Origin: a virus
Direction: 5' to 3' (one strand)
Virus record (IMG/VR): IMGVR_UViG_3300047547_000097
Coordinates: 1 to 38,333 of that record
Length of the DNA stretch: 38,333 nt
Shown here: piece by piece, positions 5,847 through 38,333 of the stretch
Layout: every line of letters begins with the position of its first letter
How positions within the stretch are numbered: the stretch's first letter is position 1
Translations under genes and position numbers: made by a program
Notes under the pieces: model-generated
Told to the model about the DNA's origin: nothing
The model's database searches: none
The model's input: only the letters and a program-made list of their open reading frames with translations

Positions 5847-5847
5847 A

Positions 5848-5892: not shown

Positions 5893-5894
5893 GG

Positions 5895-6620: not shown

Positions 6621-6621
6621 G

Positions 6622-6903: not shown

Positions 6904-6916
6904 GATGTCACCCTAA

Positions 6917-7258: not shown

Positions 7259-7270
7259 AATGACTCACCT

Positions 7271-9142
7271 TTATGGTGTAAATGAACTATACACAGGAAT
7301 ATAACCCATGAGAGTGTTGTCTTCTTTGTAAACGGGTATAACTTTAACAGGTGTAGAAAAAGCTGATGCTGCACCATATAACGATAGTCCTAACGCCCCG
7401 TCATTTCGGACAAACACCTTTTCAGAATCGGTATGATCTTTAAATCCAAATATTTTTGCACTTGTCGATGATGAAAAATTCTGAGAGGCGTAAATAGTAT
7501 TAGATGAGGCATTCAGTTTGGTGTATGACGTTACTCCATCAGTTTGAGTTAGTTTTAAAGCACCTGCTACTAATAAATCGTTAAATCTAGGAATCGACCC
7601 AATTGTAATAATATTTGACAATGAGGGTGTGAATAAACCTGACGGTAACGAAGCAGGATTGGATACCATTTTGTAAGAAAAAACGATGTTGTTATTCTGC
7701 AAAGTAAATACGGCAGACGCTGTAATTATCAACACGTCAATAATGGATGATGTACCACCTATATCAAAAAATAACTGACAGCTTTCAGTATGTCCATTTA
7801 AACCGCTGGAACCAACGGATGACCCACCGATTTGAACTTTGTAGTCACATTCACCTTTATCCCCAGATACCGATATTCTAGAGTTCTTAGCATAGGTACA
7901 TTGTAATGAGTCAACAATCGTGTCTGATGCTGTCCACGCTGTACCTGAAGGGTTTAGCCTACGATCAGCAGCCGTTTTAGTTGTTACAACTGTAGCATCT
8001 ACATTCATACCATGTGATCTAGCGATTACAACGTCACGCTGACAGTTTACAAGTGTCGCGTTGACCGTGACACCCATTGTCATATCAGCATTGAGCGCAC
8101 TTGTTGCTTCACCCGCCGAGAACACGACACCCTGATAACAATTTTCAGCCACAATGTCAATTTCGACGCTGTGTTTCTTTTCAGCCCAGTTTGCTAAATC
8201 GACTTCTAACCCGAAACCGTGTACGCAACCCTTGGCGAAAATGTTAGTAGCTTTGAGTGTCCCGCATTCTGTAGCAGGTGTACCAGTCTGAATAGTAAAT
8301 GCTTTACCACCATCTAAATAAGTAATTTTGTCAGTGTAAGGTAGATCATTTATCCATACATGATCGAACGTAAGGTTATCAAATCCCCCTACTACTGATA
8401 TACCATTTGAACCAGAACCCGATGTATTCGATATCTCAGCTTCAATCGCAAAGTTACGCGCGTGTAAATTTTTAACCGAATAAGCGTTAAAAACATCTGC
8501 CCCTGTTACAGAGTCAGTTTTGAAAATAGTAGTGGGACCTTCTCCGTAAATTGTGATGTTTTTACAATCTAATAATGTCGAAGCTGGGAAATCTTGTTTC
8601 CAAGGGAAATTTTGGATACCGCAGCTATAAGTACCTGCTGGGAAGTATAAATCAAATCCATTAGCTAAACAGTAGTCCCATACTTCTTTTATGACAGTAT
8701 ATTCATCGGTACCGTCACCTTGTACATTAAAAGGTTCATCTTTTACGGATACGACTTGTTTTAATTTTTCACCAACTGTCCCATCTGTATAAGTCGAGTC
8801 ATGGGAAAATCCAACCATACCAGAACCGTTAGCCGTGGCAAGCTGATCCCTTAATACCTTAACAGTGTAATTAGACGAACTCACATTATCAACAGTCCAT
8901 TGGGTAACATCATTTGAGTCTTTCAGAACCATTTTATATAATGATTCACCAAGCCACAGGTTCGCTTCGCCATCTGAGTCTAATATTACGGGGTTTGTAT
9001 TGGAAGTGACTTCAGTTGAATCTGTATAAGTAGCAAGCGGTGTAGTTGTACCTGCCGAGTACGTGTAAAGTTTACCACCTGATAACGGGTTGCCATCAGA
9101 ATCAAAAGCTCTGAATTTAGGATTAGGTGATAATGTACTCAT
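7271..9142 (-). CDS. Tailspike, pectate-lyase-like beta-helix, 623 aa
   Basis: Residues 1-90 form a short adaptor with the motif FDSDGNPLSGGKLYTYSAGT near residues 13-32, common at the N-terminus of phage tail fibres and spikes. A typical right-handed beta-helix entry follows at about 120-160 (VQGDGTDEYTVI; LYFPAGTYSCG). It continues with repeated N/D-G-containing coils to about residue 500 and a distinct C-terminal end. It probably binds or degrades host surface polysaccharide. The catalytic residues cannot be assigned. Its ATG overlaps the stop of the fibre gene as ATGA. Part of its N-terminal module is duplicated at 35086-35181 on the other strand. Confidence 0.88.
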   Translation of the reverse strand: MSTLSPNPKFRAFDSDGNPLSGGKLYTYSAGTTTPLATYTDSTEVTSNTNPVILDSDGEANLWLGESLYKMVLKDSNDVTQWTVDNVSSSNYTVKVLRDQLATANGSGMVGFSHDSTYTDGTVGEKLKQVVSVKDEPFNVQGDGTDEYTVIKEVWDYCLANGFDLYFPAGTYSCGIQNFPWKQDFPASTLLDCKNITIYGEGPTTIFKTDSVTGADVFNAYSVKNLHARNFAIEAEISNTSGSGSNGISVVGGFDNLTFDHVWINDLPYTDKITYLDGGKAFTIQTGTPATECGTLKATNIFAKGCVHGFGLEVDLANWAEKKHSVEIDIVAENCYQGVVFSAGEATSALNADMTMGVTVNATLVNCQRDVVIARSHGMNVDATVVTTKTAADRRLNPSGTAWTASDTIVDSLQCTYAKNSRISVSGDKGECDYKVQIGGSSVGSSGLNGHTESCQLFFDIGGTSSIIDVLIITASAVFTLQNNNIVFSYKMVSNPASLPSGLFTPSLSNIITIGSIPRFNDLLVAGALKLTQTDGVTSYTKLNASSNTIYASQNFSSSTSAKIFGFKDHTDSEKVFVRNDGALGLSLYGAASAFSTPVKVIPVYKEDNTLMGYIPVYSSFTP

Positions 9143-10041
9143 AATAGTGACAACCTTTGCTCAAGGGTAATAACTCGTTTACGTAATGATTTAATTTCAG
9201 CAGTTAATAGTGGTACAAGACTTGAATGATTGATCATTTGATAATCATTACCGTCTTTTTCACCCGTTACACTATACGGTGCTACTTGTTGGAGTTCATG
9301 GGCAATAAACATCGGTCTGTCCATAGAGGCCCCGTTCATTCTACCGATATATACTTTCATAGAATCTATTTCATCGACATTATTTAATTCATGTTTTATG
9401 GTTTTCAATCGGTAATCGGATGTTACATTATAAGCTGTCAAACCACCTGCCCGATTATAAGTAATCGAACCTCTTAATGTTGCTGTACCTTCAGTGTAAA
9501 ACTCGACAAACTTATTATCACCAGTCGTAGCATTGTCCCATAACGGTAACGTGACACCTGACTGACTTTTGACAGCTAGTCCATTGATAGAACCTGTCAA
9601 TTCCGCAACCGTTGACCCATACCATGTTGCCGATTGACCAAGTAGTAACCTTGAGCCATCGAATGTGAAATTACTACTTCCTGACGGAGTATTATAATCA
9701 GATAAATACACGATGGAATATTTGGTGCTCAGGTTATCCCATTGTGACGGTTTAGCAGGTTCTGGTGCAACTGTTTCCGAATAGTTGAAAGTTGGTGTTG
9801 GTGATGCATCGTGAATATAAGGGATATTACTTGACCGAGTAGGTTCTACGCTTTCGTCGTCATTGTAATTCGTAAAATGAGTAGAAGAGGGTGATTTAGC
9901 TAAATCTTCAATGCTCAAGTCAGAACTACCGCCTCCTGTCAGCTCGAATAACGACAGAAGAAACAGATACCATTCACGGCTCACAAGACCTGTTCTCTGG
10001 TCTAAAAAGGGTGTTCTAGGGGCTGGGATAGAGTTAAGCAC
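9139..10041 (-). CDS. Tail fibre with C-terminal S74-type intramolecular chaperone, 300 aa
   Basis: GTG at 10041 is preferred because GGAGG lies 6 bases before it. An in-frame GTG at 10056 would sit inside that site. The N-terminus (PAPRTPFLDQRTGLVSREWYLFLLSLF) resembles that of many phage fibre-like proteins. The C-terminal 100 residues contain SDYRLKT, a helical segment, MFIAHELQQVAP and a terminal coiled coil (about residues 275-300). This is the layout of endosialidase-type chaperones (Peptidase_S74), which trimerise the fibre and may cleave themselves. The Ser of SDYRLKT is the expected cleavage residue. It overlaps the gp10-like gene by 8 bases. Confidence 0.87.
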   Translation of the reverse strand: MLNSIPAPRTPFLDQRTGLVSREWYLFLLSLFELTGGGSSDLSIEDLAKSPSSTHFTNYNDDESVEPTRSSNIPYIHDASPTPTFNYSETVAPEPAKPSQWDNLSTKYSIVYLSDYNTPSGSSNFTFDGSRLLLGQSATWYGSTVAELTGSINGLAVKSQSGVTLPLWDNATTGDNKFVEFYTEGTATLRGSITYNRAGGLTAYNVTSDYRLKTIKHELNNVDEIDSMKVYIGRMNGASMDRPMFIAHELQQVAPYSVTGEKDGNDYQMINHSSLVPLLTAEIKSLRKRVITLEQRLSLL

Positions 10042-11479
10042 GGGTTTCCTCCACACTGAGTTCTGCGCCTGTTATAACGAGCTTTACGGGGTCAGTAAAC
10101 GATACTTCGTAAACTCGATCCCGTAACTTCTCACTCATACCAAGTCGTCGCCATATAACCCTGTTCCCATACTCCCCAATTCGACCAATTGATCGCCAAT
10201 TTTCGTTTGACCAAGTATGCCCACCATCATCAGAAAATCTTAAACAAACCTGAGGGTCTTCACCCTGACCTGTCGATAAACCGACTCCTGACTCTACTCT
10301 AAGTTCTAAGGAATGATGTATTGATCGTTTGAAGTTATTTTGACCTGTTCCCAAAGCTCGCCATGCTCGCAGGCATCGTTGCGTACCAACTGAGTCACTA
10401 TAGGTGTTCAGTGAGAGTTGATAAAGATTCCCGTTCTCGTAGTCGCCTACAATGCTGACACCGTTGAACATGACGTGGCACTGACCCCTGTGCCTTTTAA
10501 ACGCCCCGTTTACCCAGCTTCCCCGTTCATGCCATAATTTTGTCGCGGCATCATAGACCCATGTAGCATCAGCAGTAGGGAATGTTAGAACATAGAAAAT
10601 GTGACCTTCTTGCTGATAAGTGTAAGCTACGGCATCATCGATTCGACTTGTTCTTGCGTATTCAGCAATTTTGTACTCAACAGCATGAGTCGAAATTCGT
10701 TGACCGATATAACCATCAGCACGATACACCATGCCTTGACCACGGTCATCAGAACCCAACCAAACAATACTGTTATCCATCTTGCAAATGGAATAAGCCG
10801 ATAAGCATCCAACCTCGTTAAATGCCCCTTGGATACGTTGCAGAGGGAAGTCACCTGTACCAGAGTTGTAATACACCTCGGTCGAATTGGTACCAAATGC
10901 CCAATACTCACGGTGGTCGGATATACCCCCTACTAAATAATCAGGACTACCCTCTGCACTTGAGAAATCGAGTGGATCAATGCTAGTACCATCGAGTAAT
11001 GCGGTGATCCATAATTTCTGCGAGTTTAGTTCGGTATATACAAAATAAGAGTCGAGGAATGAGACGGTTTTAGCACTTGTGAAGTCAGGATCGGTTATCT
11101 GACCGAATGCCCCAGTTGAAGTGTTGTAGATGTACGAATTGACCCCATTGGCGATGAATATCTGCGTACCGTTGTCAGCCATCGAAACGAGTGATGACCC
11201 TGTTACTGAGCCAATAAGGGTTTCATTGTAACTTGCGTCAATTTTATAAAGCTCGTTACCTGACACCACGTACAAATAAGGTTGAGAGTCTAGTTTCCAT
11301 AAGCCTCTAATTGGGCCATTTCCGACAGTTGCTAATAGTGAAATACACGGCGCGCGATTCATAAAAGCAGCTTCGTTACCACCTTCTTCAATCGCTTCTG
11401 CAAACAAGTTAACCATACGATCACATGCAGCATTAACACTTCTCGCCACATAAGAACCTCCCATGATAGGCGACTTCAT
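10034..11479 (-). CDS. P22 gp10-like tail protein (packaged DNA stabilisation), 481 aa
   Basis: The ATG at 11479 follows AGGGGT with 6 bases between and comes one base after the preceding stop. A longer frame to 11545 would overlap that gene and lacks a site. Residues 1-45 contain PIMGGSYVARSVNAACDRMVNLFAE, close to the start of P22-type gp10 proteins. The rest shows repeated beta-propeller-like strands (GNELYKID; YLVGGISDHREYWAFGTNSTEVYYNSG). The family forms the hub of the tail machine, closing the portal and holding spike and needle. It sits directly after the gp4-like gene, as in P22. Confidence 0.88.
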   Translation of the reverse strand: MKSPIMGGSYVARSVNAACDRMVNLFAEAIEEGGNEAAFMNRAPCISLLATVGNGPIRGLWKLDSQPYLYVVSGNELYKIDASYNETLIGSVTGSSLVSMADNGTQIFIANGVNSYIYNTSTGAFGQITDPDFTSAKTVSFLDSYFVYTELNSQKLWITALLDGTSIDPLDFSSAEGSPDYLVGGISDHREYWAFGTNSTEVYYNSGTGDFPLQRIQGAFNEVGCLSAYSICKMDNSIVWLGSDDRGQGMVYRADGYIGQRISTHAVEYKIAEYARTSRIDDAVAYTYQQEGHIFYVLTFPTADATWVYDAATKLWHERGSWVNGAFKRHRGQCHVMFNGVSIVGDYENGNLYQLSLNTYSDSVGTQRCLRAWRALGTGQNNFKRSIHHSLELRVESGVGLSTGQGEDPQVCLRFSDDGGHTWSNENWRSIGRIGEYGNRVIWRRLGMSEKLRDRVYEVSFTDPVKLVITGAELSVEETRA

Positions 11480-12190: not shown

Positions 12191-12424
12191 TTACTTAGTA
12201 TTAAGAAAATCAGGGAGTTCTGAAGCAGTTTCTTCGGTTGATTCCGTGGATTTCTTTGTGGATTTCTTAGGTTTCGAGTCAACTTCGGTTTCGACAACTG
12301 GCACATCTTCAACAATTGGTGCTGGGTCATAAACAACCCATCCACGCTTTTCATCCTGAGCTACTTCATCTTCCGAAATAGCAACTTTGGTTCCGTGACG
12401 AGGGTGTCTTAAGTAAATAACCAT
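12191..12424 (-). CDS. Small head/tail-region protein, 77 aa, C-terminus LPDFLNTK
   Basis: The ATG at 12424 follows CAGGGA with 6 bases between. An in-frame TTG at 12472 would add 16 residues but overlaps the leader. Residues 1-33 (YLRHPRHGTKVAISEDEVAQDEKRGW) form a small folded start seen in phage proteins between coat and tail genes. Residues 34-68 are a low-complexity acidic then Lys/Thr/Ser-rich tail. The last eight residues, LPDFLNTK, match the recurrent L-P-x-W/F-L peptide also found in replication proteins and the terminase of this phage. The function is unknown. The tail looks like a flexible arm carrying a binding peptide. Confidence 0.82.
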   Translation of the reverse strand: MVIYLRHPRHGTKVAISEDEVAQDEKRGWVVYDPAPIVEDVPVVETEVDSKPKKSTKKSTESTEETASELPDFLNTK

Positions 12425-12472
12425 TTTTAATCCCTGAGTTGATGGTGAGGTGTGACCCTCACCTTTTGACAA

Positions 12473-17160: not shown

Positions 17161-18722
17161 GCACCCATCCATGAGTTAGGGAGTTCATAGTTAGCTTGTT
17201 TGGTGTACTTCTTGAGTTCTTGCTCGGTAGTGTACGACGATTTGATCGGGAAAGCATGACAGAGTGCCATTGCGTCACCGTAGTCAGGAGACGGTTGCTT
17301 CCTTGCTCGAATATCTTCCTTACTTTCTAACGCCGTGGCACCGTTAGACTTGAATTTCTTACGAGGTGTGGTCAGATGGAGTCGAACCAGTTTATCGTCG
17401 CTGTCCAGTGGGGTTTTGACGGGTATAGACGCGGTTTTAAGCCACTTCTTGAGCCTACCCCACATCTCGGCTCGAAAGTTCGCGTAACGGCGTTTATCAC
17501 CTGAAGACCAACCAAAGTTCACCGATCTTACATTCTTGTACCCTTGCTCCTTTAACCGATCGTACACCCCAGCCCCAAGTCCTCCCTCATCGATGTTCAC
17601 CAGCTCGGGTTTCCATCGCTCCATTGCATTGACCACCTCACCTGTTAGCTCCATTAAGTCGTCGGTCTTCAACTTCTTACGGAATTTAAGATCACGACCT
17701 TGGATGACTACGATCGTGGCAAAGTCGCCCCCTCGCGCAGGATCCACCCCCATGATAACGGGCGCATAGGGGTCATTATACGAGGGCCGTTTGAACGCTT
17801 CTTCGACCTCACTCATACCAATGAACGACTCGTTATCAGACTTAGGAAACTGACCATAAACCTCGACGCGTGCTTCATCGCTGTCTTCGCCGTATTCTTC
17901 GATGATCGAGTCATACAACGACTTATCACTATCCTCGACTGAGCGAGCGTCGATATTATCGACATCCCAAAACTGACTTTTAGAATGGAAACACTCGTAG
18001 AAGTACCCACTGTTCCGACGACCATTGGAAAAAGCCAACCAGAACCGATTAGCTGTGTTTTCGGTGAAGTACCCTTGGGCCACACTCCAGATACCATCAG
18101 GGATACCTGCGGCTTCATCGAACACGATCATCATACCGTGTTCGTTGTGCGGACCTGCAAACGAGTCAGGTTTTTCTTCACTCCATGTTTTCCCGTCGAT
18201 GATCCAATAGACCGTACCGATGTGCAACTGTTCTTCGACTTTTTGCTTAAGCCACTTGCACGGTATCACCGATGTTGCCGTTGGCTCGAACCAATGACCG
18301 TTGATCGCCATCGCCATCCACTTCGATATCTCGCCAAACGTGACTCGTTTAAGCTGCTCCTCGGTGTTCGCCGAAATGATAACCGTCGAGCCGATTCTGG
18401 TGCTGATCATCCAATGGCTGAGCCAAGCGATCAGGCAAGACTTCCCGATACCACGTCCGCTGACCCGAGCCATGCGAATGATTTCATACACGACCTCGGA
18501 GATGAACGAAGGTACGGATGCCTTGTCTTTGTTACGCTTGACAGCGTCCGCGATCCGTAGCAACAGCGCCTTCTGCCATCGTCGGGGTCCACTTCTCCCT
18601 GCCAGCGGTGTTCCCTTGCGACCCCATGGGTAAGCATACATGACAAAATTGTAAGGGTTGTCGGCTATATCGGCCGACCACAGGTCAGCCATTAACTGTT
18701 CTTCTTCTTTTTTACTCAACAT
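17157..18722 (-). CDS. terL: Terminase large subunit, 521 aa
   Basis: This is the ATPase-nuclease that packages DNA through the portal. Walker A is SGRGIGKS (88-95) and Walker B is MIVFDEA (198-204), with the acidic pair D202/E203. The RNase H-like nuclease centre shows VDPARGGD (326-333), NIDEGG (376-381) and SPDYGDA (about 478-484), so all three acidic positions are present. Its size is normal. It overlaps the small subunit by 11 bases and the portal by 4. The C-terminus reads ELPNSWMGA, loosely like the L-P-x-W peptide seen elsewhere in this phage. Confidence 0.95.
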   Translation of the reverse strand: MLSKKEEEQLMADLWSADIADNPYNFVMYAYPWGRKGTPLAGRSGPRRWQKALLLRIADAVKRNKDKASVPSFISEVVYEIIRMARVSGRGIGKSCLIAWLSHWMISTRIGSTVIISANTEEQLKRVTFGEISKWMAMAINGHWFEPTATSVIPCKWLKQKVEEQLHIGTVYWIIDGKTWSEEKPDSFAGPHNEHGMMIVFDEAAGIPDGIWSVAQGYFTENTANRFWLAFSNGRRNSGYFYECFHSKSQFWDVDNIDARSVEDSDKSLYDSIIEEYGEDSDEARVEVYGQFPKSDNESFIGMSEVEEAFKRPSYNDPYAPVIMGVDPARGGDFATIVVIQGRDLKFRKKLKTDDLMELTGEVVNAMERWKPELVNIDEGGLGAGVYDRLKEQGYKNVRSVNFGWSSGDKRRYANFRAEMWGRLKKWLKTASIPVKTPLDSDDKLVRLHLTTPRKKFKSNGATALESKEDIRARKQPSPDYGDAMALCHAFPIKSSYTTEQELKKYTKQANYELPNSWMGA

Positions 18723-20193
18723 CGATCACTCTCCCTAGTACTCGCGCTCGTGCTTCTTCGAGTGCATCGTTAATGCTCACACTGGTATTGACATCGACCG
18801 TTTGCTTCGCACCGTAACGGCGGTTGTTATAGACCCCTGTGAGCCATTTACGCGCCTCGATCCGCAGCTTCGAGCGTGCCGTATCGTCCATGATGGGATT
18901 CCCAGACGCATCGACACCATCTGCTATGTTCAACACCTCGGCTGCCATGATCTCAGCCCCGATCATCTGAGCCATCATGTACCGTTCCTGACGTGTCGTA
19001 TCGTCATTAATCCACTTGATCAACGCCCCTTTCTTGATCCGCAGTCCTCGCCTCGCTAGTATGGACTCGATACTCATCCCTTCGTATAAATCCTCCAACA
19101 CATCCTCGAAGACTTCTTCTAACCAAGGCTCGATCTCACGGATGACAGCGGTTCGCCGTGTTGTGGTAATACCCCCTTTACCAATGACAGTCAGACCCTT
19201 GGCAACCAGTGTTCCATTGACCGCCCATGCGTACCCATTGACGAGTCCACTGTCGATGTACTCCTTGACTGTGATGGCCCCGCACGGCTCGTTGAGACGT
19301 ACGAAGCAGGGGTGTCCGTTAGGTAACACCATGACCCTGTAACACCATGCTTCAGGACTCTCCTTGGCCACGGCCCATGTATTCTCCCCACACCCTGTGA
19401 CTCGCCGTGTCGCCTGCATGACATTGTAGTGCGGGGTGCTAGGGTCGATCTCACTCCACAACCTAACTTGCGACTCGTTGGGTTCACGCATCACGGCATC
19501 CTCGCGTTGGTTGAACCAGTCACGCTCTGGATGAAACCCCTTCGTCATAATGTCGTAAAAGCTCCTGACGTAGCCCATGCCTGATGTCGCCGAGTCAATA
19601 CCTTCTCGCCTATCCATTAAGGTTCGCCTCCACACGGCTTCCTTGGTCTCCTTGTCCCACTGTGCCAGAAACTCACCAGCGTAGAGTACGGGCATGTGGG
19701 GACAGGTGTCGAGGGTACGCGCGTCAACAGCATAGATGGCATTCGAGCGATAAAAGTGCCAAAGACTCGCAAACTGCTCCAATTCTTTACAGATGAACCA
19801 CCGTTCGTTGGGATGAGGGGATGTCGCGTGAATGGACGGATCGAAGGGTGTGACCACGAATGACGGGTTCAAGACTCGTGAAAACCGTGGGTCTGTGTAG
19901 TTATGGAAGGGTTCACCTGACTTTGTAACCCACTGGTTTGATAGAGTTAAGGTGGGGGAAGAAGTGTGAGTCGATTCCATACCACTTCCACCCCCTCGCA
20001 AAGCTCGCTCAAGTAACTGATCCAATGACAACGGGATCAACTCACCAGTGGCGGTGATCGTGTTGTTCGATAGATCGGGGAGACTTACGGAAGTCAGGGT
20101 CGATTGGGTCGGAGTCGATAGAGTAGGGGGTGATGAACCAGTTAACCAGTTTGGTAACGAGGGTAGAGTTGACGAATTTGAATTTGTTTCCAT
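18712..20193 (-). CDS. terS: Terminase small subunit with long N-terminal extension, 493 aa
   Basis: Residues about 362-493 look like an Sf6-type small terminase. They comprise a helix-turn-helix (EGMSIESILARRG, then ALIKWINDD), the helical core YMMAQMIGAEIMAAEVLNIADG and RIEARKWLTGVYNNRRYG. The usual family length is about 140-180 aa, so some 330 residues are extra. Residues 1-80 are Ser/Thr/Pro-rich and unfolded-looking, containing LPNWLTG (13-19). Residues 90-350 look folded, with many Trp and Cys, but match no domain known to me. The ATG at 20193 has no strong ribosome site, and an in-frame stop lies shortly upstream. It is first in the late operon and should recognise viral DNA for packaging. 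Confidence 0.85.
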   Translation of the reverse strand: METNSNSSTLPSLPNWLTGSSPPTLSTPTQSTLTSVSLPDLSNNTITATGELIPLSLDQLLERALRGGGSGMESTHTSSPTLTLSNQWVTKSGEPFHNYTDPRFSRVLNPSFVVTPFDPSIHATSPHPNERWFICKELEQFASLWHFYRSNAIYAVDARTLDTCPHMPVLYAGEFLAQWDKETKEAVWRRTLMDRREGIDSATSGMGYVRSFYDIMTKGFHPERDWFNQREDAVMREPNESQVRLWSEIDPSTPHYNVMQATRRVTGCGENTWAVAKESPEAWCYRVMVLPNGHPCFVRLNEPCGAITVKEYIDSGLVNGYAWAVNGTLVAKGLTVIGKGGITTTRRTAVIREIEPWLEEVFEDVLEDLYEGMSIESILARRGLRIKKGALIKWINDDTTRQERYMMAQMIGAEIMAAEVLNIADGVDASGNPIMDDTARSKLRIEARKWLTGVYNNRRYGAKQTVDVNTSVSINDALEEARARVLGRVIDVE

Positions 20194-23861: not shown

Positions 23862-24111
23862 TCCTTGGCTCGATCCTACCGTGGAGCTACCAGCGACCCT
23901 GCGACACCTACCGTTGCGTCAGGTCAAGATGCTCGGTGAAGAATGGGTTATCTGCCAGCACGTGAACCGCATCGACAATACTGAACGGGATACGTTCGGC
24001 TGGATGGTGCGAGTCGGGGAGCATTGCCGATTCTTCAACGACTTCGAGGGACCACCGCAAGCCAGCTTAATCAAAGCTTATAACTTTTTAAATGGAGTCA
24101 TAAATGAGTAA
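23845..24111 (+). CDS. Early protein, 88 aa, unknown function
   Basis: The ATG follows GGAGG with 6 bases between and overlaps the previous gene by 17 bases. The protein begins with a basic, Pro-containing segment (RRHNPWLDPTVELP). It continues with short strands (EEWVICQHVNRID; FGWMVRVGEHCRFFNDFEGP) and ends in a helix. It may be a small beta-barrel or SH3-like domain. No family is recognised. It overlaps the HTH gene by 8 bases and is probably co-translated with it. Confidence 0.72.
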   Translation: MVRRHNPWLDPTVELPATLRHLPLRQVKMLGEEWVICQHVNRIDNTERDTFGWMVRVGEHCRFFNDFEGPPQASLIKAYNFLNGVINE

Positions 24112-24448
24112 GGAACAACTAAACAAGTGGAGTCACGTGGACGACTTCGCCCTGAGCGAGCTACTCGGGGTCACGTGGATCACAGTGCAACGGTACAAGA
24201 ACGGTACGCGACCGATCCCACTGACTACCAATAAAACGATCGGTCTGATGGCGGTGATCGAGTCGAACAACCCTGACTTGTTCGCCATGCTGGTCAGTCA
24301 GGCGGTCGTCGAATCTAGACGCATGGCGCAGGACCACCGCATAAAGGTCGCCGACCAAAACCGTCAGTATTACCTGACCAAGCGAGCCAAGACATCCGAA
24401 GGGTCGCCAGTACAGGCGATGACGGACGTACCAAACTGGTTGAAGTGA
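24104..24448 (+). CDS. Helix-turn-helix protein ending in VPNWLK, 114 aa
   Basis: Residues about 14-36 (DFALSELLGVTWITVQRYKNGTR) form a Cro/C1-type helix-turn-helix with the recognition helix near WITVQRYKNG. A helical region and a basic middle follow. The last six residues, VPNWLK, match the recurrent peptide found at the C-terminus of the DUF2800 nuclease (LPDWLK). It is the only obvious DNA-binding regulator among the early genes and is thus the best candidate to act at the palindromes of the control region or the primase promoter. That target is inferred. Confidence 0.75.
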   Translation: MSKEQLNKWSHVDDFALSELLGVTWITVQRYKNGTRPIPLTTNKTIGLMAVIESNNPDLFAMLVSQAVVESRRMAQDHRIKVADQNRQYYLTKRAKTSEGSPVQAMTDVPNWLK

Positions 24449-24527: not shown

Positions 24528-27494
24528 TCAGGAACCAAACCGATCAGTTAACGCAGTAAGTCGCTTCTCGTTAAGTGTCCGAGTCGCGAAGCAACGAGAA
24601 GCAAGCGTCCCGACGCATGGGTTTATCTGGTAAGAAAGTCGATCCCGTGCGTTCACCTTAGGCAACGGAGCAAGGAACCCACGGCGTTGGAACGTAATAA
24701 GCGCCGACTCGATCCACCACTGGAGTCGGGCCTGTTTACCCTCTAGCAGTTTCATCAAGTTGTCATCGGTCTTGATCCATAACTCCACGTCGCTGGTGGT
24801 GAGCGTGTCCTTGCCCGACGAGGCGACATGGAGTACGTGATCCATGACCGATGCCTCGACAGCCGTAAGCTCGTGGTTCGAGCAGTACATAACCTGGAAC
24901 GAGGGGATCACAAAGTCGAGAATAAAGCGGATGGCTTGACGCAGGGTCGCAAGGCTCACTGTAGTGTGATAGCCGAGATGAGTAAACAAATGGAACACAT
25001 AAGCCAAACGACCTGCGTACCCGACCATCTTACCCAAAGCTTCGACGAACAGGGGACTTGTATCTCGATCAATGGATAACAGGCGAACCCGCTCATCCAT
25101 CGACTCACGGAACGACTCGAACAGGTCACGGGCAGCATCGGATAACTCGTACTTGACTGGCGACTTAGCGTGTCTAATACTCGTGAACCGCTCACCCAGT
25201 GACTTCAGCGTAGCCGACACCGCACCCCGTGGAATCGTCTTATCCTCTGGGTGGTGAGTAGCGAGGAAGGGAATAAATCGATGAATGAACCCGTCACCTA
25301 AGGCGTGTAAATGAGGCATGAGTTGACGAGGTTGCACGTTCACGAGTTGCGCGACATTAAGGTTATCGGCGTGAGCGAACCCCTGCCCGACTCGATCCTG
25401 CGTGTAAGACCCGCCGTCGAACGAGGCGATCCAGACTGATCGCGACTCGTAACCCTGCACCGAGGCTAGACCAGCCAACCAGTCTGCCCCATCGTCTTTG
25501 TAGTGGAGCATGCCCTTTGGTGAGGCGATAGCGGTGCGTACAAGGGTGGCACTGGTCGAGTCTCTTAGTACCAAGGTGGGGCGACCTTTCGGGGCCTCTG
25601 GCTCTTTGAAAGGCATCTTACGGATCGGATCACTGCTATCGAGTAAAGTATCACTTCGACGCTTCATGTAAGCATCGACAGCTTTATCATGGAACCGCTT
25701 CTCAATGTCGTACTCGCGCTTCTTCTCCTCATAAGCCTTAACCTCGGGAACCTGTATAAGCTCGTCAATCAACTTAACAATCGGAGTTGTGACAGGTGAC
25801 TTCTTAACCGATGGATCACCGATCACCATCGACCACACTGTAGGTGGTACGACGAACCCGTCTCGCAGCTCTAACCCTACCCGCGAGTCGGCCACACCAC
25901 TGACACATGAAAGGATCGCGGCTACCGCCACCGCAGGATCAGAACCTTGCTGTCCTGCGATCACATGAGCCGCTGACCATAAATCATCAGGCAGCATGGT
26001 CGGACTCAACGAGGGTGGTTTAGGCTTGCCCACCGAGACAATGTCCTTCACAGTCAACGACTCAAAGACTTGACGAGTGGGCTGGTCTTTCGTTAAAGTA
26101 GTCGGGCAACCCTGAGATGCAGACAACCAACTCGGTACATCGGGAAGGTCTGTCAATCGGTTGGGTAACTGGGTGTCACGAGTGCTTTGGTTACCTGTTA
26201 AGAAAGCGGGTAGGTGGATAGTTGATTCTGGGTTTTGCCTCCTTTCGTCTGACGACTCACTTATTCCGCTATCTTTTCTGAATAAAGGCATCGAAGCCCA
26301 AGACGGTAACAATGGTTCGAATAAATCAGATACGTCATACTCGACTTGTACATTATCTGGAGCATACCCAGTCAACCAAGCTGGTAAGGCTTGAGGTTTA
26401 ACGAATAACCAAGTCGGTAGCGTGGAGTCGAATAAGTCAGATATGTCAAAGTCAATCTGTACATAGGGTAACGACTCGAATAAGTAAGATGCATCGTCCA
26501 CCTGTACATTGTCTGGAGCATGCCCAGTCAACCAAGCTGGTAAGACAGGACTCATTAATTCTTCGACTGGTTTAAATAAATGACTCACGTCTCGACGACT
26601 CGGTACGTAACCTTGTAAGGTGGCGTAGTGGAACAGTGTATTAATCGTTACAGCATCGTCACGAGTCGTCTTAAAGCTCCTCCACTGGGGCAGAAGACCC
26701 TTGTAACCATCGTACTTCCCCATCTTCGAACCAGACGACCATTTATCCCACACATCCAACGCATACTCGCATTCGCCCGTTCCCGATGCCTGATGATGTA
26801 ATGCCATGCCTACGTGGAGCCATTCCTCCCTGCAACAGTCTGGGTTCAAATGACTCAAAGCATCCTCGATGTCGTCCCACGTAGCGTCAGAAGGTTTGAC
26901 AGGTTCAGTACGCTCGACAACCTTCAGTAAACTCGACCAGTAACCTAGCAAGGAGGCAGGGATCATCGGAGGCTTAGCAGGGTTCCCCTTCCCTCCCCAC
27001 TGATAACGGCCCATTGTCTCAGGGTGAGTTGATGGTGGCAGCACGTCTTGAACCGTTAAACCCTCTGACGTAGCGCATCGGAAGTCGATGATGTCGTGAG
27101 TCGATGAACCATCTTTGTAACGTACCTTTTTGGAATGGAGAGGGAACGGAGTACGGTAAAGTAATTTGGCTTTGTTCGGCTTACCACTGATAATCTGCAC
27201 CGCGTCATCGGCATTCAAAAGCGCGTGCAGGTCGATACCCACCTTGCTCAGAATATCCGTCGCCTGTACCACGTCATCAATATCCAGTGCCATCGTTCCC
27301 GAATAGGCGTGGCAGATTCCATAATTTTTAAAAGGGTGTTGTTGGTAATCTTTGGTCAAGTGACCTTTATAATCTTTTTTGTTCCACCCAATGAATTCAT
27401 CACCCTTTGGCGACTTCTCAGCGAATCCGAACTCTATTACCTTGAAACCTGAGAGAATTAAATCGTTGATTGTTGTAGTTCTGGATTGACTCAT
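24528..27494 (-). CDS. Primase-helicase: prim-pol, PriCT and DUF3987 domains, 988 aa
   Basis: Residues about 10-190 look like a prim-pol (AEP) domain, with catalytic ALDIDD (69-74), SGKPNKAKLLYR (103-114) and VLPPSTHPETMGRYQWGG (151-168). Residues 203-295 fit a PriCT helical domain (WDDIEDALSHLNPD; EEWLHVGMALHHQ). From about 500 the DUF3987 helicase-like part begins, with the phosphate loop GDPSVKKSP (559-567). Residues 302-456 are a repeat-bearing linker with four D-x-S-x-L-F copies (302, 334, 350, 387) and six L/V-P-x-W/F-type copies (318, 359, 370, 396, 428, 452). It probably primes and unwinds DNA at the fork. It is the only replication gene on the minus strand. Its weak GGGAG site lies 10 bases before the ATG. 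Confidence 0.88.
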   Translation of the reverse strand: MSQSRTTTINDLILSGFKVIEFGFAEKSPKGDEFIGWNKKDYKGHLTKDYQQHPFKNYGICHAYSGTMALDIDDVVQATDILSKVGIDLHALLNADDAVQIISGKPNKAKLLYRTPFPLHSKKVRYKDGSSTHDIIDFRCATSEGLTVQDVLPPSTHPETMGRYQWGGKGNPAKPPMIPASLLGYWSSLLKVVERTEPVKPSDATWDDIEDALSHLNPDCCREEWLHVGMALHHQASGTGECEYALDVWDKWSSGSKMGKYDGYKGLLPQWRSFKTTRDDAVTINTLFHYATLQGYVPSRRDVSHLFKPVEELMSPVLPAWLTGHAPDNVQVDDASYLFESLPYVQIDFDISDLFDSTLPTWLFVKPQALPAWLTGYAPDNVQVEYDVSDLFEPLLPSWASMPLFRKDSGISESSDERRQNPESTIHLPAFLTGNQSTRDTQLPNRLTDLPDVPSWLSASQGCPTTLTKDQPTRQVFESLTVKDIVSVGKPKPPSLSPTMLPDDLWSAAHVIAGQQGSDPAVAVAAILSCVSGVADSRVGLELRDGFVVPPTVWSMVIGDPSVKKSPVTTPIVKLIDELIQVPEVKAYEEKKREYDIEKRFHDKAVDAYMKRRSDTLLDSSDPIRKMPFKEPEAPKGRPTLVLRDSTSATLVRTAIASPKGMLHYKDDGADWLAGLASVQGYESRSVWIASFDGGSYTQDRVGQGFAHADNLNVAQLVNVQPRQLMPHLHALGDGFIHRFIPFLATHHPEDKTIPRGAVSATLKSLGERFTSIRHAKSPVKYELSDAARDLFESFRESMDERVRLLSIDRDTSPLFVEALGKMVGYAGRLAYVFHLFTHLGYHTTVSLATLRQAIRFILDFVIPSFQVMYCSNHELTAVEASVMDHVLHVASSGKDTLTTSDVELWIKTDDNLMKLLEGKQARLQWWIESALITFQRRGFLAPLPKVNARDRLSYQINPCVGTLASRCFATRTLNEKRLTALTDRFGS
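26344..26544 (-). repeat. 45-base tandem-type repeat inside the primase linker
   Basis: Bases 26344-26388 and 26500-26544 agree at 42 of 45 positions, exactly 156 bases (52 codons) apart and in frame. Both encode LPAWLTG(H/Y)APDNVQV. The three differences look like third-position changes or one His/Tyr change. The linker has evidently grown by in-frame duplication and may vary in copy number between relatives. Confidence 0.85.
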
Positions 27495-28263: not shown

Positions 28264-28662
28264 ATGATTAATCTAGATGAATTAACACTCGGTCAGATTA
28301 AACAGATCCAGTCTCTAGTACCTGCGACTGCACCATCGAAATCAAACCCTACTCAGTATGACCCTTTTGTAGGTAAACCAGTTCTGGTTCGCCACAACCT
28401 TAACGGGGTGAATTGTGGAGTTCTGGTAGCACCGATGAAAGAAGGTTTTTACCTGAACAGTGGTCGTAAATTCTGGCGTTGGCAGGCTGATAAAGGTGTG
28501 TCATTGGAATCCTTTGCAAAGACACCACGTTCAGAGGGTACTCGTGCTAGTCACGTTCAACAGTCCATCTTCATTCCAAGCGAGGGGTTGTGTGGGATCA
28601 TTTTGTTATCGGATGCTGAGTTCACAAAGATGTTAGAGATTGAAATATCCAGGCAAGACTGA
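28264..28662 (+). CDS. Phage protein resembling the DUF6948 type, 132 aa
   Basis: The middle (residues about 32-80) reads YDPFVGKPVLVRHNLNGVNCGVLVAP, then FYLNSGRKFWRWQADKGVSLESFA. This pattern, a small beta domain with R-x-F/I-W-x-W and a Gly/Ser loop, is seen in small phage proteins of the DUF6948 kind, whose biochemical role is unknown. The N-terminus is helical (LTLGQIKQIQSL). The resemblance is from memory of the motif and is tentative. The gene lies between the acidic adaptor and the Gly-repeat gene. Confidence 0.65.
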   Translation: MINLDELTLGQIKQIQSLVPATAPSKSNPTQYDPFVGKPVLVRHNLNGVNCGVLVAPMKEGFYLNSGRKFWRWQADKGVSLESFAKTPRSEGTRASHVQQSIFIPSEGLCGIILLSDAEFTKMLEIEISRQD

Positions 28663-28672
28663 GGTATCGAAA

Positions 28673-28864
28673 ATGAAGCTAGAAATCGGAAACTACAAGT
28701 TTGACGAAGACCGAATTGGCGATGGCTCTGGCTCTGGCGATGGCTTTGGTTATGGCGATGGTTATGGTTATGGATCTGGCTCTGGCGATGGTTATGGATC
28801 TGGCTATGGCTCTGGCGATGGCTATGGCTATGGCTCTGGCTCTGGCTATGGCTCTGGAGTATAA
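28673..28864 (+). CDS. Gly-X dipeptide repeat protein, 63 aa
   Basis: ATG 28673 has GAGG 8 bases before it. A TTG at 28640 would overlap the previous gene and is less likely. The first 16 residues are a charged start (LEIGNYKFDEDRIG). From there the protein is nearly pure Gly-X, where X is Ser, Asp, Tyr or Phe, about 22 pairs, ending GSGV. Such short Gly/Tyr/Ser-rich proteins occur in other phages and bacteria, but their role is unknown. The repeat would be disordered or amyloid/condensate-prone. It lies directly upstream of the DUF2800 nuclease gene. Confidence 0.72.
   Translation: MKLEIGNYKFDEDRIGDGSGSGDGFGYGDGYGYGSGSGDGYGSGYGSGDGYGYGSGSGYGSGV
28719..28860 (+). repeat. Hexamer-type microsatellite (GGC-TCT/GAT/TAT units)
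   Basis: The stretch consists of 6-base-related units GGCTCT, GGCGAT, GGCTAT and GGTTAT repeated about 22 times. All shifts of a unit keep the reading frame. Two other frames are also open through it, one giving a hydrophobic Ala/Leu/Met repeat on the same strand and one Ala/Arg/Ile repeats on the other. These are best seen as by-products of the repeat. Confidence 0.8.
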
Positions 28865-28867
28865 AAC

Positions 28868-30220
28868 ATGGTCACTCAACCTACTCATAAACGATTAGCA
28901 GCATCGAGCAGACACCGATGGAAAGTGTGTCCTGCCTCGGTGACTGAGGAAGCCAAGTACCCGAACAAAAGCTCGGAGAGTTCTAAGGACGGTACACACA
29001 GCCACACGTTATTAAGTGCCTGTGTCAGTACACCGTTCCTTGGTATCCTTGAACCTGAGTTCTTCATGGGTCAGACGATGACTGACCACGATGACTCGTT
29101 CGTCGTTGATCCTGAACGATGCAAACGAGTCAAGGTCGCTATTGGTTACATTAAAAAACGAGTTCACGAGTTAGGAGGAACACAGAAAGTAAAAGTCACG
29201 GCCGACATCAGTACGGACTTGGATCACTTCGGGATTGCCGATTGTGGTGGTACGTTCGACGTGTGTTTGGAGTCAGATAGTCTCATTGAGGTTATCGACT
29301 ACAAAGACGGACGAACACCTGTCGCAGCGAGCAATGATGACGGTTCACCCAATGAGCAGTTGGAGCAATACCTGTTCGGGAAGATGGCATCGCTGAAACG
29401 TGGAATGAAGGCTCAAGAATACCCGTGGAAACGGGCTATTTTGACCATTATTCAGCCCCGAATGATCGAACCGATATCTTCACATCAACTCACCATTGAA
29501 GAAGCCTTAAATCGACTCTGTAACATCATGGACGAGGTGGCTCGGGTTAACACCGACGAACCTGAGTACGTACCCACAGAGTCAGGGTGTCAGTGGTGCC
29601 GAGCGAAGGGTAACTGTAGCGCATTTGCTTCAATGGCTGCTAGTAAGTTAGGTCAGGTTGTCGATGTGTCAGGGTTGTTCAAACCTATCAATGACACACA
29701 GGACACCGCGACAGGGTTAGCTTCACAGCTTGCTAACACCGATCCTACCAAGCTCACTGACCAACAACTCGTTAAGTTGTACGAGTCGGAGTCACTTGTC
29801 ACGTCATTCTTCAAATCAACGAAGGAGGAGTTACAACGTCGCTTGGAAGCTGGACAACGTATCGACGGGGTGAAACTGGTCAATGGTCGCGGTAGTCGCA
29901 CATGGGCTGTTCCAGAGGATGAAATGGCATCAAAACTCAAGCGAATGGGTGTACCAAAGGATGTCATTTACCCAACCAGTTTCATCACGATTCCACAGCT
30001 TGAGAAAGCAACATGGGATAAGAAAGATGGAACCAAAGGCAGTTTAACCGCGAAGCAATTGGAGTTGATCGACGCGCAGTACACGAGTCGCGTTGTCGGT
30101 AAACCTGTATTAACGTTTGAGTCGGATGAACGGAAGGAGGTCATCACCGACGTGAGTCATTTGTTCAAAGCTGTAGAACCACAGCAAACCGTAGTAACTT
30201 TACCAGATTGGCTTAAATAA
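28868..30220 (+). CDS. DUF2800 / Cas4-like PD-(D/E)XK nuclease, 450 aa
   Basis: The nuclease core shows GTHSH (42-46), GTFDVCL with D131, and EVIDYKDGR with E141, D144 and K146, followed by EQLEQYLFG (163-171). C21 plus C241, C244 and C250 (CxxC-x5-C) match the four cysteines that hold an iron-sulphur cluster in Cas4/AddB-type nucleases. The family (DUF2800) is often next to DUF2815 and a phage polymerase, as here. It is expected to process DNA ends in replication or recombination. The protein carries DVSGLF (266-271), DVSHLF (428-433) and ends in LPDWLK (445-450). GGAG lies 8 bases before the ATG. Confidence 0.88.
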   Translation: MVTQPTHKRLAASSRHRWKVCPASVTEEAKYPNKSSESSKDGTHSHTLLSACVSTPFLGILEPEFFMGQTMTDHDDSFVVDPERCKRVKVAIGYIKKRVHELGGTQKVKVTADISTDLDHFGIADCGGTFDVCLESDSLIEVIDYKDGRTPVAASNDDGSPNEQLEQYLFGKMASLKRGMKAQEYPWKRAILTIIQPRMIEPISSHQLTIEEALNRLCNIMDEVARVNTDEPEYVPTESGCQWCRAKGNCSAFASMAASKLGQVVDVSGLFKPINDTQDTATGLASQLANTDPTKLTDQQLVKLYESESLVTSFFKSTKEELQRRLEAGQRIDGVKLVNGRGSRTWAVPEDEMASKLKRMGVPKDVIYPTSFITIPQLEKATWDKKDGTKGSLTAKQLELIDAQYTSRVVGKPVLTFESDERKEVITDVSHLFKAVEPQQTVVTLPDWLK

Positions 30221-30250: not shown

Positions 30251-30958
30251 ATGAGTAACGAAATCATCTTCATCCAAAACGCCCGTATCTCTTTCCCTAA
30301 CCTCATCGAGCCTCAAGTCCGTGAGAAGGAAGACGGTAGCAAGATCATCACTTATAACTGCGACCTTATCCTTCCACCAGATCACGCTGGTTACAAGGCA
30401 TTCATGCTCCGATTCCAATCTATTGCTAACGAGATGTGGAAAGACCGCGCTCAAGGTGCCATGCAGCAGATACACGCAGATCGTAAGTCTCGATGCTATG
30501 GACTCGGTGAGGAGCGCAAGAACAGTAAGACCTTCGAGGTGTACAGTGGTTATGCAGGGAACGTTTACATCAGTGCATCACGCAGCTTCGACCCCGTCAA
30601 GAACACAGGTCGCCCACAGATTATCAAAGAGAACGGACAAGCCGTCGATGCAGGTGACTTGGTTCAATACGCCCATTACACCCGTCAGATTTACGCAGGG
30701 TGTTACGTCAACGCTGCCATTAAACCTTGGGCGCAGAAGAACGTGCATGGTAACGGTATCCGATGTGAATTAGTCGCTATCCAGTTTGCCAAGGACGGCG
30801 AACCATTCGGTGAAGCGGAGGTCGATGTATCGGGTATGTTCGGTGCGGTAGCAGGTGGGCAACCTGCCAGTGGTGTGACGTTTAACCCAATCGACCCTAG
30901 CCTCACGTCACCAGCACCAGCGATGCCAGGATTACCTTCGTTCTTAGGAGGGAACTAG
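30251..30958 (+). CDS. DUF2815 family, presumed single-stranded DNA-binding protein, 235 aa
   Basis: The sequence fits DUF2815: an N-terminal strand ARISFPNLIEPQ, then YNCDLILPPDH, a helix with FQSIANEMWKD, YISASRSFDPVK, YAGCYVNAAIKPWAQ and RCELVAIQFAKDGEPFG. These have the feel of an OB-fold. The family is found with DUF2800 nucleases and polymerases and is believed to coat single-stranded DNA. The C-terminal 45 residues are flexible and carry DVSGMF (192-197) and LPSFL (228-232). It is separated by 30 bases from the nuclease gene and has AAAGGA upstream. Confidence 0.85.
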   Translation: MSNEIIFIQNARISFPNLIEPQVREKEDGSKIITYNCDLILPPDHAGYKAFMLRFQSIANEMWKDRAQGAMQQIHADRKSRCYGLGEERKNSKTFEVYSGYAGNVYISASRSFDPVKNTGRPQIIKENGQAVDAGDLVQYAHYTRQIYAGCYVNAAIKPWAQKNVHGNGIRCELVAIQFAKDGEPFGEAEVDVSGMFGAVAGGQPASGVTFNPIDPSLTSPAPAMPGLPSFLGGN

Positions 30959-33285: not shown

Positions 33286-33627
33286 ATGACAGTGTTCAAA
33301 CTACCGAAGTCTAAACCCTCTGAGTCAAGTATCGAAAGTAAAGGGCGAAAGTACGCACAATCCAAGGGCCACTTCTCATACAAGTTTGTCTCCCCTTCCC
33401 ACCGCTCTGTACCAGATCGACTTAACTTAGCCCCCGTACCCGAATGGCTGAGACCTGTCATCGCCAAGTACGTGTGTTTTATCGAGTACAAGAAAGGTGG
33501 CAAGGAACCCACTGACGAGCAGGCTCGTGAGCATGAACGACTCCGTGATCTTGGCTACCGAGTAGAGGTCATCGACAACGTGGAAGACTCGAAGAAAGTG
33601 ACTGACTCAATGGGTGAGACATGCTGA
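33286..33627 (+). CDS. VRR-NUC domain nuclease, 113 aa
   Basis: The sequence matches stand-alone phage VRR-NUC enzymes: an early ESSIESKGRKYAQSKG, then SVPDRLNLAP with the catalytic Asp, FIEYKKGGKEPTDEQ with E and K of the E-x-K, and a late GYRVEVID. These small PD-(D/E)XK proteins cleave branched DNA and are typically paired with an SNF2-like helicase, as here. ATG 33286 is taken because it follows the preceding stop. A GTG at 33271 is an alternative. It overlaps the helicase by 7 bases. Confidence 0.88.
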   Translation: MTVFKLPKSKPSESSIESKGRKYAQSKGHFSYKFVSPSHRSVPDRLNLAPVPEWLRPVIAKYVCFIEYKKGGKEPTDEQAREHERLRDLGYRVEVIDNVEDSKKVTDSMGETC

Positions 33628-35027
33628 CTCCAGAGAACCTACACGGCTACCAGAAACGCGCTGTGAAGCATCAGTGTTCGACCCCATACTCGATGTTGTG
33701 GGTCGATATGGGACTGGGGAAAACGGCGATTACACTCACTTCGATCACTCATCTCATCGGGTCAGGCTTCGTTAACGCCGTCTTGGTCGTTGCCCCGTTG
33801 CGTGTTGTCTCACTGGTATGGCGACAGGAAGCGAAGAAGTGGACTCACACCAAAGACCTTACATTCAGCGTCATCACGGGAACAGTGGATCAAAGGAGTC
33901 GGGCGTTATTACGCAAGGCAGACGTATATCTTATCAACTACGAGAACTTAGGATGGTTAGCGAAGGTATTGCAGGTTTACTTTCTGAAACCCTGTAAACC
34001 GTTACCTTTTGAAGGGATCGTCTGGGACGAAGTGACTAAGTGTAAGAACAGCACCACGAACCGAGTTAAAGCGATTCGTAAGGTTCTACCCCACATGAAA
34101 TGGCTGACAGGGTTAACAGGTAGCCCAGCACCCAATGGATTAAAAGATTTACATGGTCAGTATTTAGTAGTCGATAAAGGGGTACGACTTGGTGAATATA
34201 AGACCCACTTCAAAGAACGGTTCTTCAAGAAAGCAGGCCCTTATGATGAAGTACCCCATGCTGATTCCGAGTCGGTCATCAAGCAACTGGTTTCAGATAT
34301 TACGCTTGAGATGAGTGCCGAAGAATACAACCCATTACCAGCGATCATTGTTAACGATGTCAGACTCGATTTACCCAGTCAGTTACGCGACCGCTACGAA
34401 GAGATGGAGCGCGATTTCTTCCTTCAACTCGATTCAGGAAATGAGGTTGAACTGTTCAACCAAGCGTCACTTATGAACAAAGCTCTCCAATTCGCCAATG
34501 GATCGGTTTACCTTTGCCCAGGTGTTCCCTTGTACGAAGAACTCCATGACCTGAAACTGGAAGCACTTGATGACGTAATCGACTCTGCCCAAGGGAACCC
34601 TGTTCTATGCTCGTACAGTTTCAAGGCTGATGCCGAACGGATTATGAAACGGTTTAAATCGATAGACCCGATTAACTTAACCGCGTGCAAAAATGATCGT
34701 GAGTTGGAAAATGCCATGACAAGGTGGAAGAAAGGCGACTGTGGTCTGATGGTCGGTCATCCTGCCAGCATGGGCTTTGGAATCGACGGATTACAGGATT
34801 CTGGTCATATTCTTACATGGTTCGGGGTTACATGGTCACTCGACTTGTATGACCAGTTTAACGCCCGTCTGCGTCGTCAGGGTCAAGGAAGACCTGTGAT
34901 ATGTAATCGGATCATTATGAATAACACGCTCGACGATGCGCAGGTCGAAGCGTTGTCACTCAAAGCGAGTAATGAGCAATCACTGCGTAAGGCTCTTAAC
35001 AAATATAGGCAAACAAAGGGGTATTAA
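33621..35027 (+). CDS. SNF2-type DEAD/DEAH-box helicase, 468 aa
   Basis: Motif I is DMGLGKTA (29-36), motif Ia VVAPLRVV (57-64), motif II WDEV (135-138), with SNF2-like TGSPAPNG (167-174). The C-terminal half has the motif V/VI region with DLYDQFNARLRRQGQGRPV. Length and motifs match phage SNF2-like helicases that follow a VRR-NUC gene. It probably translocates on double-stranded DNA and remodels forks or recombination intermediates together with the nuclease. No extra domain is visible. Confidence 0.9.
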   Translation: MLTPENLHGYQKRAVKHQCSTPYSMLWVDMGLGKTAITLTSITHLIGSGFVNAVLVVAPLRVVSLVWRQEAKKWTHTKDLTFSVITGTVDQRSRALLRKADVYLINYENLGWLAKVLQVYFLKPCKPLPFEGIVWDEVTKCKNSTTNRVKAIRKVLPHMKWLTGLTGSPAPNGLKDLHGQYLVVDKGVRLGEYKTHFKERFFKKAGPYDEVPHADSESVIKQLVSDITLEMSAEEYNPLPAIIVNDVRLDLPSQLRDRYEEMERDFFLQLDSGNEVELFNQASLMNKALQFANGSVYLCPGVPLYEELHDLKLEALDDVIDSAQGNPVLCSYSFKADAERIMKRFKSIDPINLTACKNDRELENAMTRWKKGDCGLMVGHPASMGFGIDGLQDSGHILTWFGVTWSLDLYDQFNARLRRQGQGRPVICNRIIMNNTLDDAQVEALSLKASNEQSLRKALNKYRQTKGY

Positions 35028-35028
35028 A

Positions 35029-35223
35029 ATGAAAACATTAGCGCAATTATGGTCTTATTTAAAGATTAAGTTTCGAAAAGTACGGGCTTCCGACTCTGAC
35101 GGTAACCCGTTAGCAGGCGGTAAGCTTTACACGTATTCAGCGGGTACAACTGCACCGCTTGCTACTTATATAGACACGACCAATTTAAAGAAGACCAACC
35201 ATGACCAAGAAACCTCGGAATAA
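35029..35223 (+). CDS. Small protein carrying a copy of the tailspike N-terminal module, 64 aa
   Basis: ATG 35029 has AAAGGGG upstream. Residues 1-19 are helical and basic, unlike the spike. Residues 20-51 (SDSDGNPLAGGKLYTYSAGT and following) closely match tailspike residues 12-43. DNA of 35086-35181 aligns with the reverse strand of 9014-9109 at roughly 85 percent, most changes being silent. Conserved third-base drift with kept protein sequence suggests it is translated and under selection. It stops after the module and overlaps the next gene by 23 bases. It may be a recombination donor, a decoy or an assembly factor. All of these are inference. Confidence 0.72.
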   Translation: MKTLAQLWSYLKIKFRKVRASDSDGNPLAGGKLYTYSAGTTAPLATYIDTTNLKKTNHDQETSE

Positions 35224-35833
35224 GAAGTACAACCCTTACCGAAAAGAACACATGAGTTTTGTACGAGTATGGGCATTCCTTGACCCATTTAACACGTTTC
35301 TGAAGCAGTTAGCGACAGGTGACGTATATACCAACGAGAAAGGACAAGTTCTATTCGATTTACCAGGTGAGTTGACGATAGACGACGCTGTGAAGAAAGG
35401 TGAACCTCCTTTGTTGGCCGTGCCGAATATCCGATCCATCCTGATAGCCTATCGGCAAGTCGCCCAGCTTGGAGGTAACGATGCATTGGTGCAGTCAATT
35501 CGTGACAAGGTGAGTGAGTTCGAGCGGCGAATACTAAAACCACTGGAACTAGACTCACCGATCCAAGAAAGTTCGTTGAAGATTGGATTCGATCTGGTTA
35601 AGGATATGCAAGCTTTCTTTCTTAAAGCACCGTTGAACGATGTGATGACAGTCAACCAAGCCCTGATATCACTGGTTAAGTTATCCGAACAGTTCAATGT
35701 CGCTGTTAGCTTGGACTGCTGGGTTCAACCGTTCTTGGATGCCATGAAAGAGAATCCAAAACGAATTATTAACAGTCTTAATGAAATAATTGACCTTGAG
35801 TCGATTATCAAAGAATCACCTAGTTTTGAATGA
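35201..35833 (+). CDS. Helical protein, 210 aa, unknown function
   Basis: It starts with a basic segment (TKKPRNKKYNPYRKEH), then a helical body with regular hydrophobic spacing (FLDPFNTFLKQLATGD; RSILIAYRQVAQLGGNDALVQSIRDKVSEFERRIL). It ends in an acidic helix. No enzymatic motif was recognised. It may be a DNA-associated or structural replication accessory protein because it directly follows the helicase group. That is from position only. Confidence 0.72.
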   Translation: MTKKPRNKKYNPYRKEHMSFVRVWAFLDPFNTFLKQLATGDVYTNEKGQVLFDLPGELTIDDAVKKGEPPLLAVPNIRSILIAYRQVAQLGGNDALVQSIRDKVSEFERRILKPLELDSPIQESSLKIGFDLVKDMQAFFLKAPLNDVMTVNQALISLVKLSEQFNVAVSLDCWVQPFLDAMKENPKRIINSLNEIIDLESIIKESPSFE

Positions 35834-38128: not shown

Positions 38129-38333
38129 TTACTTTGACTTGCGAGCCTCCTCTTGCTTGGAAGCTGGTTCAGTCCGTGTCCCAATCGCCCCTGCTGTTCT
38201 GGTAAACGCATTCTTGACCAAGGGTGTCGTGGTGACTGCCTTAACCATTGCGTTGTTCTCCGTACCTGGTAACATCTTACTCATCACAAATTGACGAATC
38301 GTTGACCACTTTTCCTTGGGTACGTAATTCGCC
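38129..38333 (-). CDS. Ejection protein, C-terminal part (continues from 1-2364)
   Basis: This is the 3' end of the large ejection-type gene. It reads from the duplicate 145 bases into unique sequence and stops at TAA 38131-38129. The terminal residues (GAIGTRTEPASKQEEARKSK) are polar and basic. Together with 1-2364 it makes about 807 aa. The two base differences between the copies (CCT/CCC and AAA/AAG codons) leave the protein unchanged. Confidence 0.88.
   Translation of the reverse strand, partial: ANYVPKEKWSTIRQFVMSKMLPGTENNAMVKAVTTTPLVKNAFTRTAGAIGTRTEPASKQEEARKSK
38189..38333. repeat. Terminal overlap, copy 2
   Basis: These bases match 1-145 except at two positions near 38313 and 38316, both silent in the overlapping gene. 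This marks the point at which the assembled circle closes. Confidence 0.93.

Follow-up and report, generated by a model that had tools for sequence, protein, structure and literature searches.

The window, by which we mean the whole analyzed stretch of 38,333 bases that makes up virus record IMGVR_UViG_3300047547_000097, carries a small open reading frame (ORF) of 64 codons, which lies between a gene for an SNF2-type helicase and a 210-aa ORF (Table 1) and is located in the early rather than in the late gene block. Its start codon is preceded at a distance of seven bases by the ribosome-binding-like sequence AAAGGGG (35015–35021), and at its other end it overlaps the 210-aa ORF by 23 bases. 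The encoded protein is composed of three parts, in that a segment corresponding to residues 9–43 of the phage's own tailspike is flanked on both sides by non-tailspike sequence, and the frame is unbroken over all 64 codons and through both junctions. A family search with the N-terminal 29 residues returned no match. The ends of the record (1–145 and 38189–38333) form a direct repeat with 143 of 145 bases identical, which represents either terminal repeats or the overlap of a circular assembly with two differences.

Table 1. Positions of the small ORF, its neighbors, the tailspike gene and genes for proteins with recurring motifs in the window.
Feature	Position	Strand	Remark
SNF2-type helicase gene	33621–35027		5' neighbor of the small ORF
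Small chimeric ORF, 64 aa	35029–35223	+	ATG start, TAA stop
N-terminus of small ORF, non-tailspike, MKTLAQLWSYLKIKFR	35029–35076	+	short helix predicted at residues 4–13, low confidence
Segment shared with the tailspike (tailspike residues 9–43)	35077–35181	+	best-matching core, codons 20–51, at 35086–35181
C-terminus of small ORF, non-tailspike, NLKKTNHDQETSE and stop	35182–35223	+	final 23 bases double as start of next gene
210-aa ORF	35201–35833		3' neighbor of the small ORF
Tailspike gene, 623 aa	7271–9142	-	residues 1–91: P22/Pam1-type head-binding domain
Tailspike stretch (residues 9–43) with diverged copy in small ORF	9014–9118	-	alignment, repeat search
Second half of head-binding domain, NTNPVILDSDGEANLWL..YKMVLKDS..WTVDN	8870–9013	-	absent from small ORF
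Primase	24528–27494	-	recurring motifs
RecB-like	28868–30220	+	recurring motifs
Single-strand-binding-like	30251–30958	+	recurring motifs
ORF	18712–20193	-	recurring motifs
ORF	24104–24448	+	recurring motifs
ORF	12191–12472	-	recurring motifs

The Tailspike and Its Diverged Copy

Residues 1–91 of the tailspike constitute a head-binding domain of the P22/Pam1 type by sequence and by fold. They match the head-binding domain of Pam1 (7EEQ) with phmmer (E = 5.5e-7) and Foldseek (E = 2.6e-5), a sequence match exists also to Pan3 (9VYG), and the Foldseek matches comprise the head-binding domains of Pam1, Pan3 and P22 (7EEQ, 9VYG, 2VKY, 1LKT). The AlphaFold2 model of this domain has a pLDDT of 86 and contains five strands (9–11, 24–29, 59–61, 69–74, 80–87). 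The third-position G+C of the tailspike and the adjoining fiber-like genes (5115–10056, minus strand) is 0.30–0.36 and thus lower than that of the replication and terminase genes (0.50–0.60), which would fit a separate history of the spike region.

A sequence-only reading of the window had equated codons 20–51 of the small ORF with tailspike codons 12–43 on the opposite strand, and this is confirmed by a gapless alignment, in which 79 of 96 bases are identical (82.3%), and by an independent repeat search, in which the pair 9021–9118/35077–35174 (98 nt, 83%) is the sole inverted repeat in the whole window that reaches a length of 40 nt. The DNA identity is high, as had been stated, and amounts to 82–83% rather than to about 85%. 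The changes are mostly silent as described, as over the 96 aligned bases 12 are silent and 5 replace a residue, and the longest identical run comprises 18 bases. The similarity begins at codon 17–20 of the small ORF and ends abruptly after codon 51. The match is not due to chance, since its ungapped score is 64, while the best of 30 shuffles reached 16, and since a tailspike search of the window's own genome finds two places only, the small one with E = 9e-15.

The small copy was compared with other tailspikes, represented by 163 distinct modules taken from viral contigs other than the window. Its DNA identity to these modules does not exceed 69%, and that of the tailspike of the window does not exceed 74%, compared to 82% between the two, and only 0.6% of the module pairs within the family are as close as this pair. 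The residues R11 and A12, each found in approximately 1% of modules, are common to both; together with the mutual identity of 82% this indicates that the segment comes from this tailspike lineage, i.e., from the own genome or that of a near relative. None of the modules compared is a closer donor candidate than the tailspike of the window itself (best 69%), and a degenerate pattern for the signature DSDGNPL..GGKLYTYSA had no match in viral contigs.

What the Small ORF Retains of the Head-Binding Domain

The segment had been described as a second copy of the N-terminal module, which is correct insofar as a segment was copied; the whole module is not present, as the small ORF holds approximately 35 of approximately 90 residues. 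Our results agree with the further description, according to which a piece from the tailspike N-terminus lacks the beta-helix and follows another N-terminal sequence in a gene of the early block. Two of the five strands are covered, and the strands 59–61, 69–74 and 80–87 are missing, by which a complete five-strand head-binding domain of ~90 residues is ruled out. The motif NTNP[VI]LDS.GE ... W.VDN of the second half, which is found in all complete modules compared, does not occur in the small ORF, and neither does the fuller consensus NTNPVILDS.GEANVWL..YK..L..W.VDN. From the first half, in which GGKLYTY.AGT.P is strongly conserved, GGKLYTYSAGT and P are retained, and the residues F13, T34 and T40, strongly conserved with 85–95% identity in the module family, are lost by the replacements F13S, T34A and T40I. 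AlphaFold2 gave no confident fold for the 64-aa protein (20 aligned sequences; pLDDT 55, pTM 0.19). With three of five strands gone, strongly conserved residues altered and such a poor model, the proposal that the ORF supplies a usable spike-attachment module finds no support. Compared with the head-binding domains of P22 gp9 (1LKT), Pam1 (7EEQ) and Pan3 (9VYG), the small ORF is a diverged copy of approximately the first 35 residues, that is, about two fifths of the domain, with changed conserved positions, a foreign N-terminus and no spike.

Occurrence in Related Phages

It had been suggested to look for the same stand-alone module in relatives, and none was found in the loci and modules searched: there was no second example in the 21 loci that the small protein retrieved or in the 44 records to which the 91-aa domain was compared, no early-block copy in ten helicase-relative records, and no other stand-alone half-module among ~160–177 distinct modules in all loci, including an unbiased pattern scan. 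The second half is kept in every module found in related DNA, barring one that is cut by a contig end; two further modules that the motif pattern had flagged are complete, their sequences reading ...QNPI and ...VNPI. Within what was searched, the small ORF is unique. Of the wider searches, a comparison of the whole phage with 50,697 phage records gave no DNA match to a near relative, one with the adjoining 210-aa ORF gave no relatives, DNA polymerase patterns used to seek relatives matched nothing, and the search for prophage relatives in a genome collection gave one weak match. A literature search on duplicated tailspike head-binding domains yielded nothing direct.

Short proteins with the whole anchor are common, unlike the small ORF: many viral contigs encode the whole module in frames of 154–270 aa, and phage DSL-LC05 has a 170-aa protein (WJZ48168.1) of this kind. 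These short late module proteins likewise combine a head-binding module with the lack of a long beta-helix; however, their N-terminus comprises the ~90-aa domain in full, and the DSL-LC05 gene is located in the structural block.

All nine helicase relatives examined carry unrelated sequence at the position of the small ORF. The helicase gene is followed by a MazG-like ORF in one relative (L001), as read from its translation, by a gene for a 69-aa hypothetical protein in phage DSL-LC05, and by convergent lysis genes in two Vibrio phages. Because the sequence differs among these relatives, the place behind the helicase is a variable spot, and in some relatives it is the junction of the early and late blocks. 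The native small gene of DSL-LC05 at this position was considered as ancestor of the N-terminus of the small ORF and rejected, as only W8 is common to both. In Vibrio phage 1.185.O (MG592551.1) CRISPR spacers are annotated at 1543–1760, within the coding sequence of a gene that lies upstream of that for the helicase; they are probably a repeat-rich coding stretch.

Tests for Selection on the Small Copy

The sequence-only reading had proposed to compute dN/dS for the aligned regions, and the pairwise value of 0.09–0.14 between the small ORF and the tailspike segment reveals a clear silent excess. From this excess it had concluded that the pattern favours selection on the protein, which does not follow, since a silent change looks identical whether it occurred in the small copy, in the tailspike or prior to the capture. 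All five replacements in codons 20–51 polarize to the small-ORF side and none to the tailspike side. At these positions the tailspike residues F13, S21, T34, T40 and S42 have family frequencies of 85, 25, 95, 91 and 44%, respectively, and the small-copy residues S, A, A, I and T have frequencies of 0, 8, 0, 0.6 and 0%; five residues of the small copy are rare in the family compared to one in the tailspike. The profile score of the small copy is approximately 3 sd below the family mean, and that of the tailspike is typical.

Simulations in which all changes occurred neutrally in the small copy gave a probability of so few replacements of at most 0.002, which rises to ~0.01 for equal time on both sides and to 0.05–0.07 for time mostly on the tailspike side. 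Codon branch models with outgroups estimate an omega of 0.17–0.35 for the small branch compared to ~0.05 elsewhere, i.e., in tailspikes, and these branch tests are rough, as they use 32 codons and a star of distant outgroups with silent sites near saturation. With free branch lengths and two outgroup sets, neutrality had p values of 0.37 and 0.05 and family-level constraint of 0.12 and 0.10; with equal branch lengths neutrality and full constraint were both mildly rejected (p 0.02–0.06; likelihood-ratio p for neutrality 0.023 and 0.064). Neutrality on the small branch is overall not firmly rejected, with p ranging from 0.02 to 0.37 by assumption, and neither is full constraint. A fair reading of these alignments is that the small copy is under relaxed constraint, possibly with some selection. 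Some constraint on the small protein is possible on account of its intact 64-codon frame, the strong pairwise silent excess and the disfavor of neutrality under equal times. This case also illustrates that a pairwise silent excess between duplicates, alone, is no proof of selection on the shorter copy.

Origin and Possible Roles of the Small ORF

The small ORF probably arose by capture of a tailspike fragment through illegitimate recombination, the fragment now forming the middle of a small chimeric early ORF. Of the three options given by the earlier reading, debris of recombination fits best; a spike donor or an attachment competitor is unlikely. A piece of ~100 bases, encoding approximately the first 35 head-binding residues, would have been copied from this phage's own tailspike or from that of a close relative into the early block, where it would have landed in frame at the variable spot behind the helicase gene. 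In phages, partial gene duplications and mosaic junctions created by illegitimate recombination likewise consist of a short gene fragment fused in frame to unrelated sequence, and the present case does not differ from them in principle; its piece is short, inverted and 18% diverged. The two segments share descent, the small one is truncated and its replacements are one-sided; we infer that the captured piece has lost the function of a spike anchor. The ORF may have been kept open by chance and recency, or by a weakly constrained other use of the small early gene, of which the simplest would be a putative short translated leader coupled via the 23-base overlap to the next gene. With its probable origin by capture, the small ORF illustrates clearly how pieces of known structural genes can be built into small early phage genes whose origin is obscure.

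The capture may alternatively have left nothing but neutral debris, in which case the ORF would not be a gene and the segment would have been taken recently from an already diverged tailspike. We consider this doubtful, although a free-branch model with omega fixed at 1 for the small copy fits as well as a single omega (lnL -562.47 vs. -563.28) and the third-position G+C of the segment (0.44) is closer to that of the early genes than to that of the tailspike (0.25–0.30): the start site is good, the frame is open across both junctions, non-genes would hardly find space among such tightly packed genes, and the closest tailspike found is the window's own. The start site and the intact frame would also suit an early peptide with a function of its own, whose tailspike-derived part was selected for a new role, e.g., as a competitor that limits attachment by binding to the tail hub or to assembling spikes. 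This is somewhat less probable still. It is consistent with a small-branch dN/dS below 1 and with the p values for neutrality of ~0.02–0.06 under equal times; the three missing strands, the loss of residues with 85–95% family identity, the lack of a confident fold, the location in the early rather than the late block and the absence of a further carrier among the relatives searched argue against it. The specific version in which the phage has recruited a fragment of its own tailspike anchor as a small early protein to influence spike attachment, e.g., by delaying or limiting assembly or by blocking the spikes of co-infecting phages, is quite improbable; if true, it would be an unusual reuse of a structural domain as an early regulator.

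Spikes are often exchanged at the junction formed by the tailspike anchor, and the homology of the segment to this anchor would fit a stored donor for its exchange by recombination. A donor cassette needs enough identical sequence to recombine with its target; however, the longest identical run of 18 nt is below the published minima of 23–27 nt for Red-beta and 31–34 nt for RecA (PMC3945230). Moreover, the copies are mutually inverted, and a crossover between them would flip much of the genome, and the copy contains no receptor-binding part. The earlier proposal of a donor for spike exchange is therefore very improbable.

Recurring Motifs in Other Proteins of the Phage

Two short motifs recur in replication and other proteins encoded in the window (Table 1). 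The motif LPxWL/LPxFL is often located at the extreme C-terminus, and its type P-x-[WF]-L was seen 12 times compared to 2.1 expected from a shuffled proteome; D[VIA]SxLF was seen seven times compared to 0.1 expected, with four occurrences in the primase linker. Directly before the RecB-like gene lies a 74-aa ORF (28640–28864, plus strand) that consists mostly of Gly-Ser/Asp/Tyr repeats (GSGDGYGYGSG). The DSL-LC05 homologues have the motifs too, as RecB ends with LPSWLS and SSB contains DASGMF and LPSFFGQ. Both motifs have the look of docking sites for one shared partner, for example a clamp.
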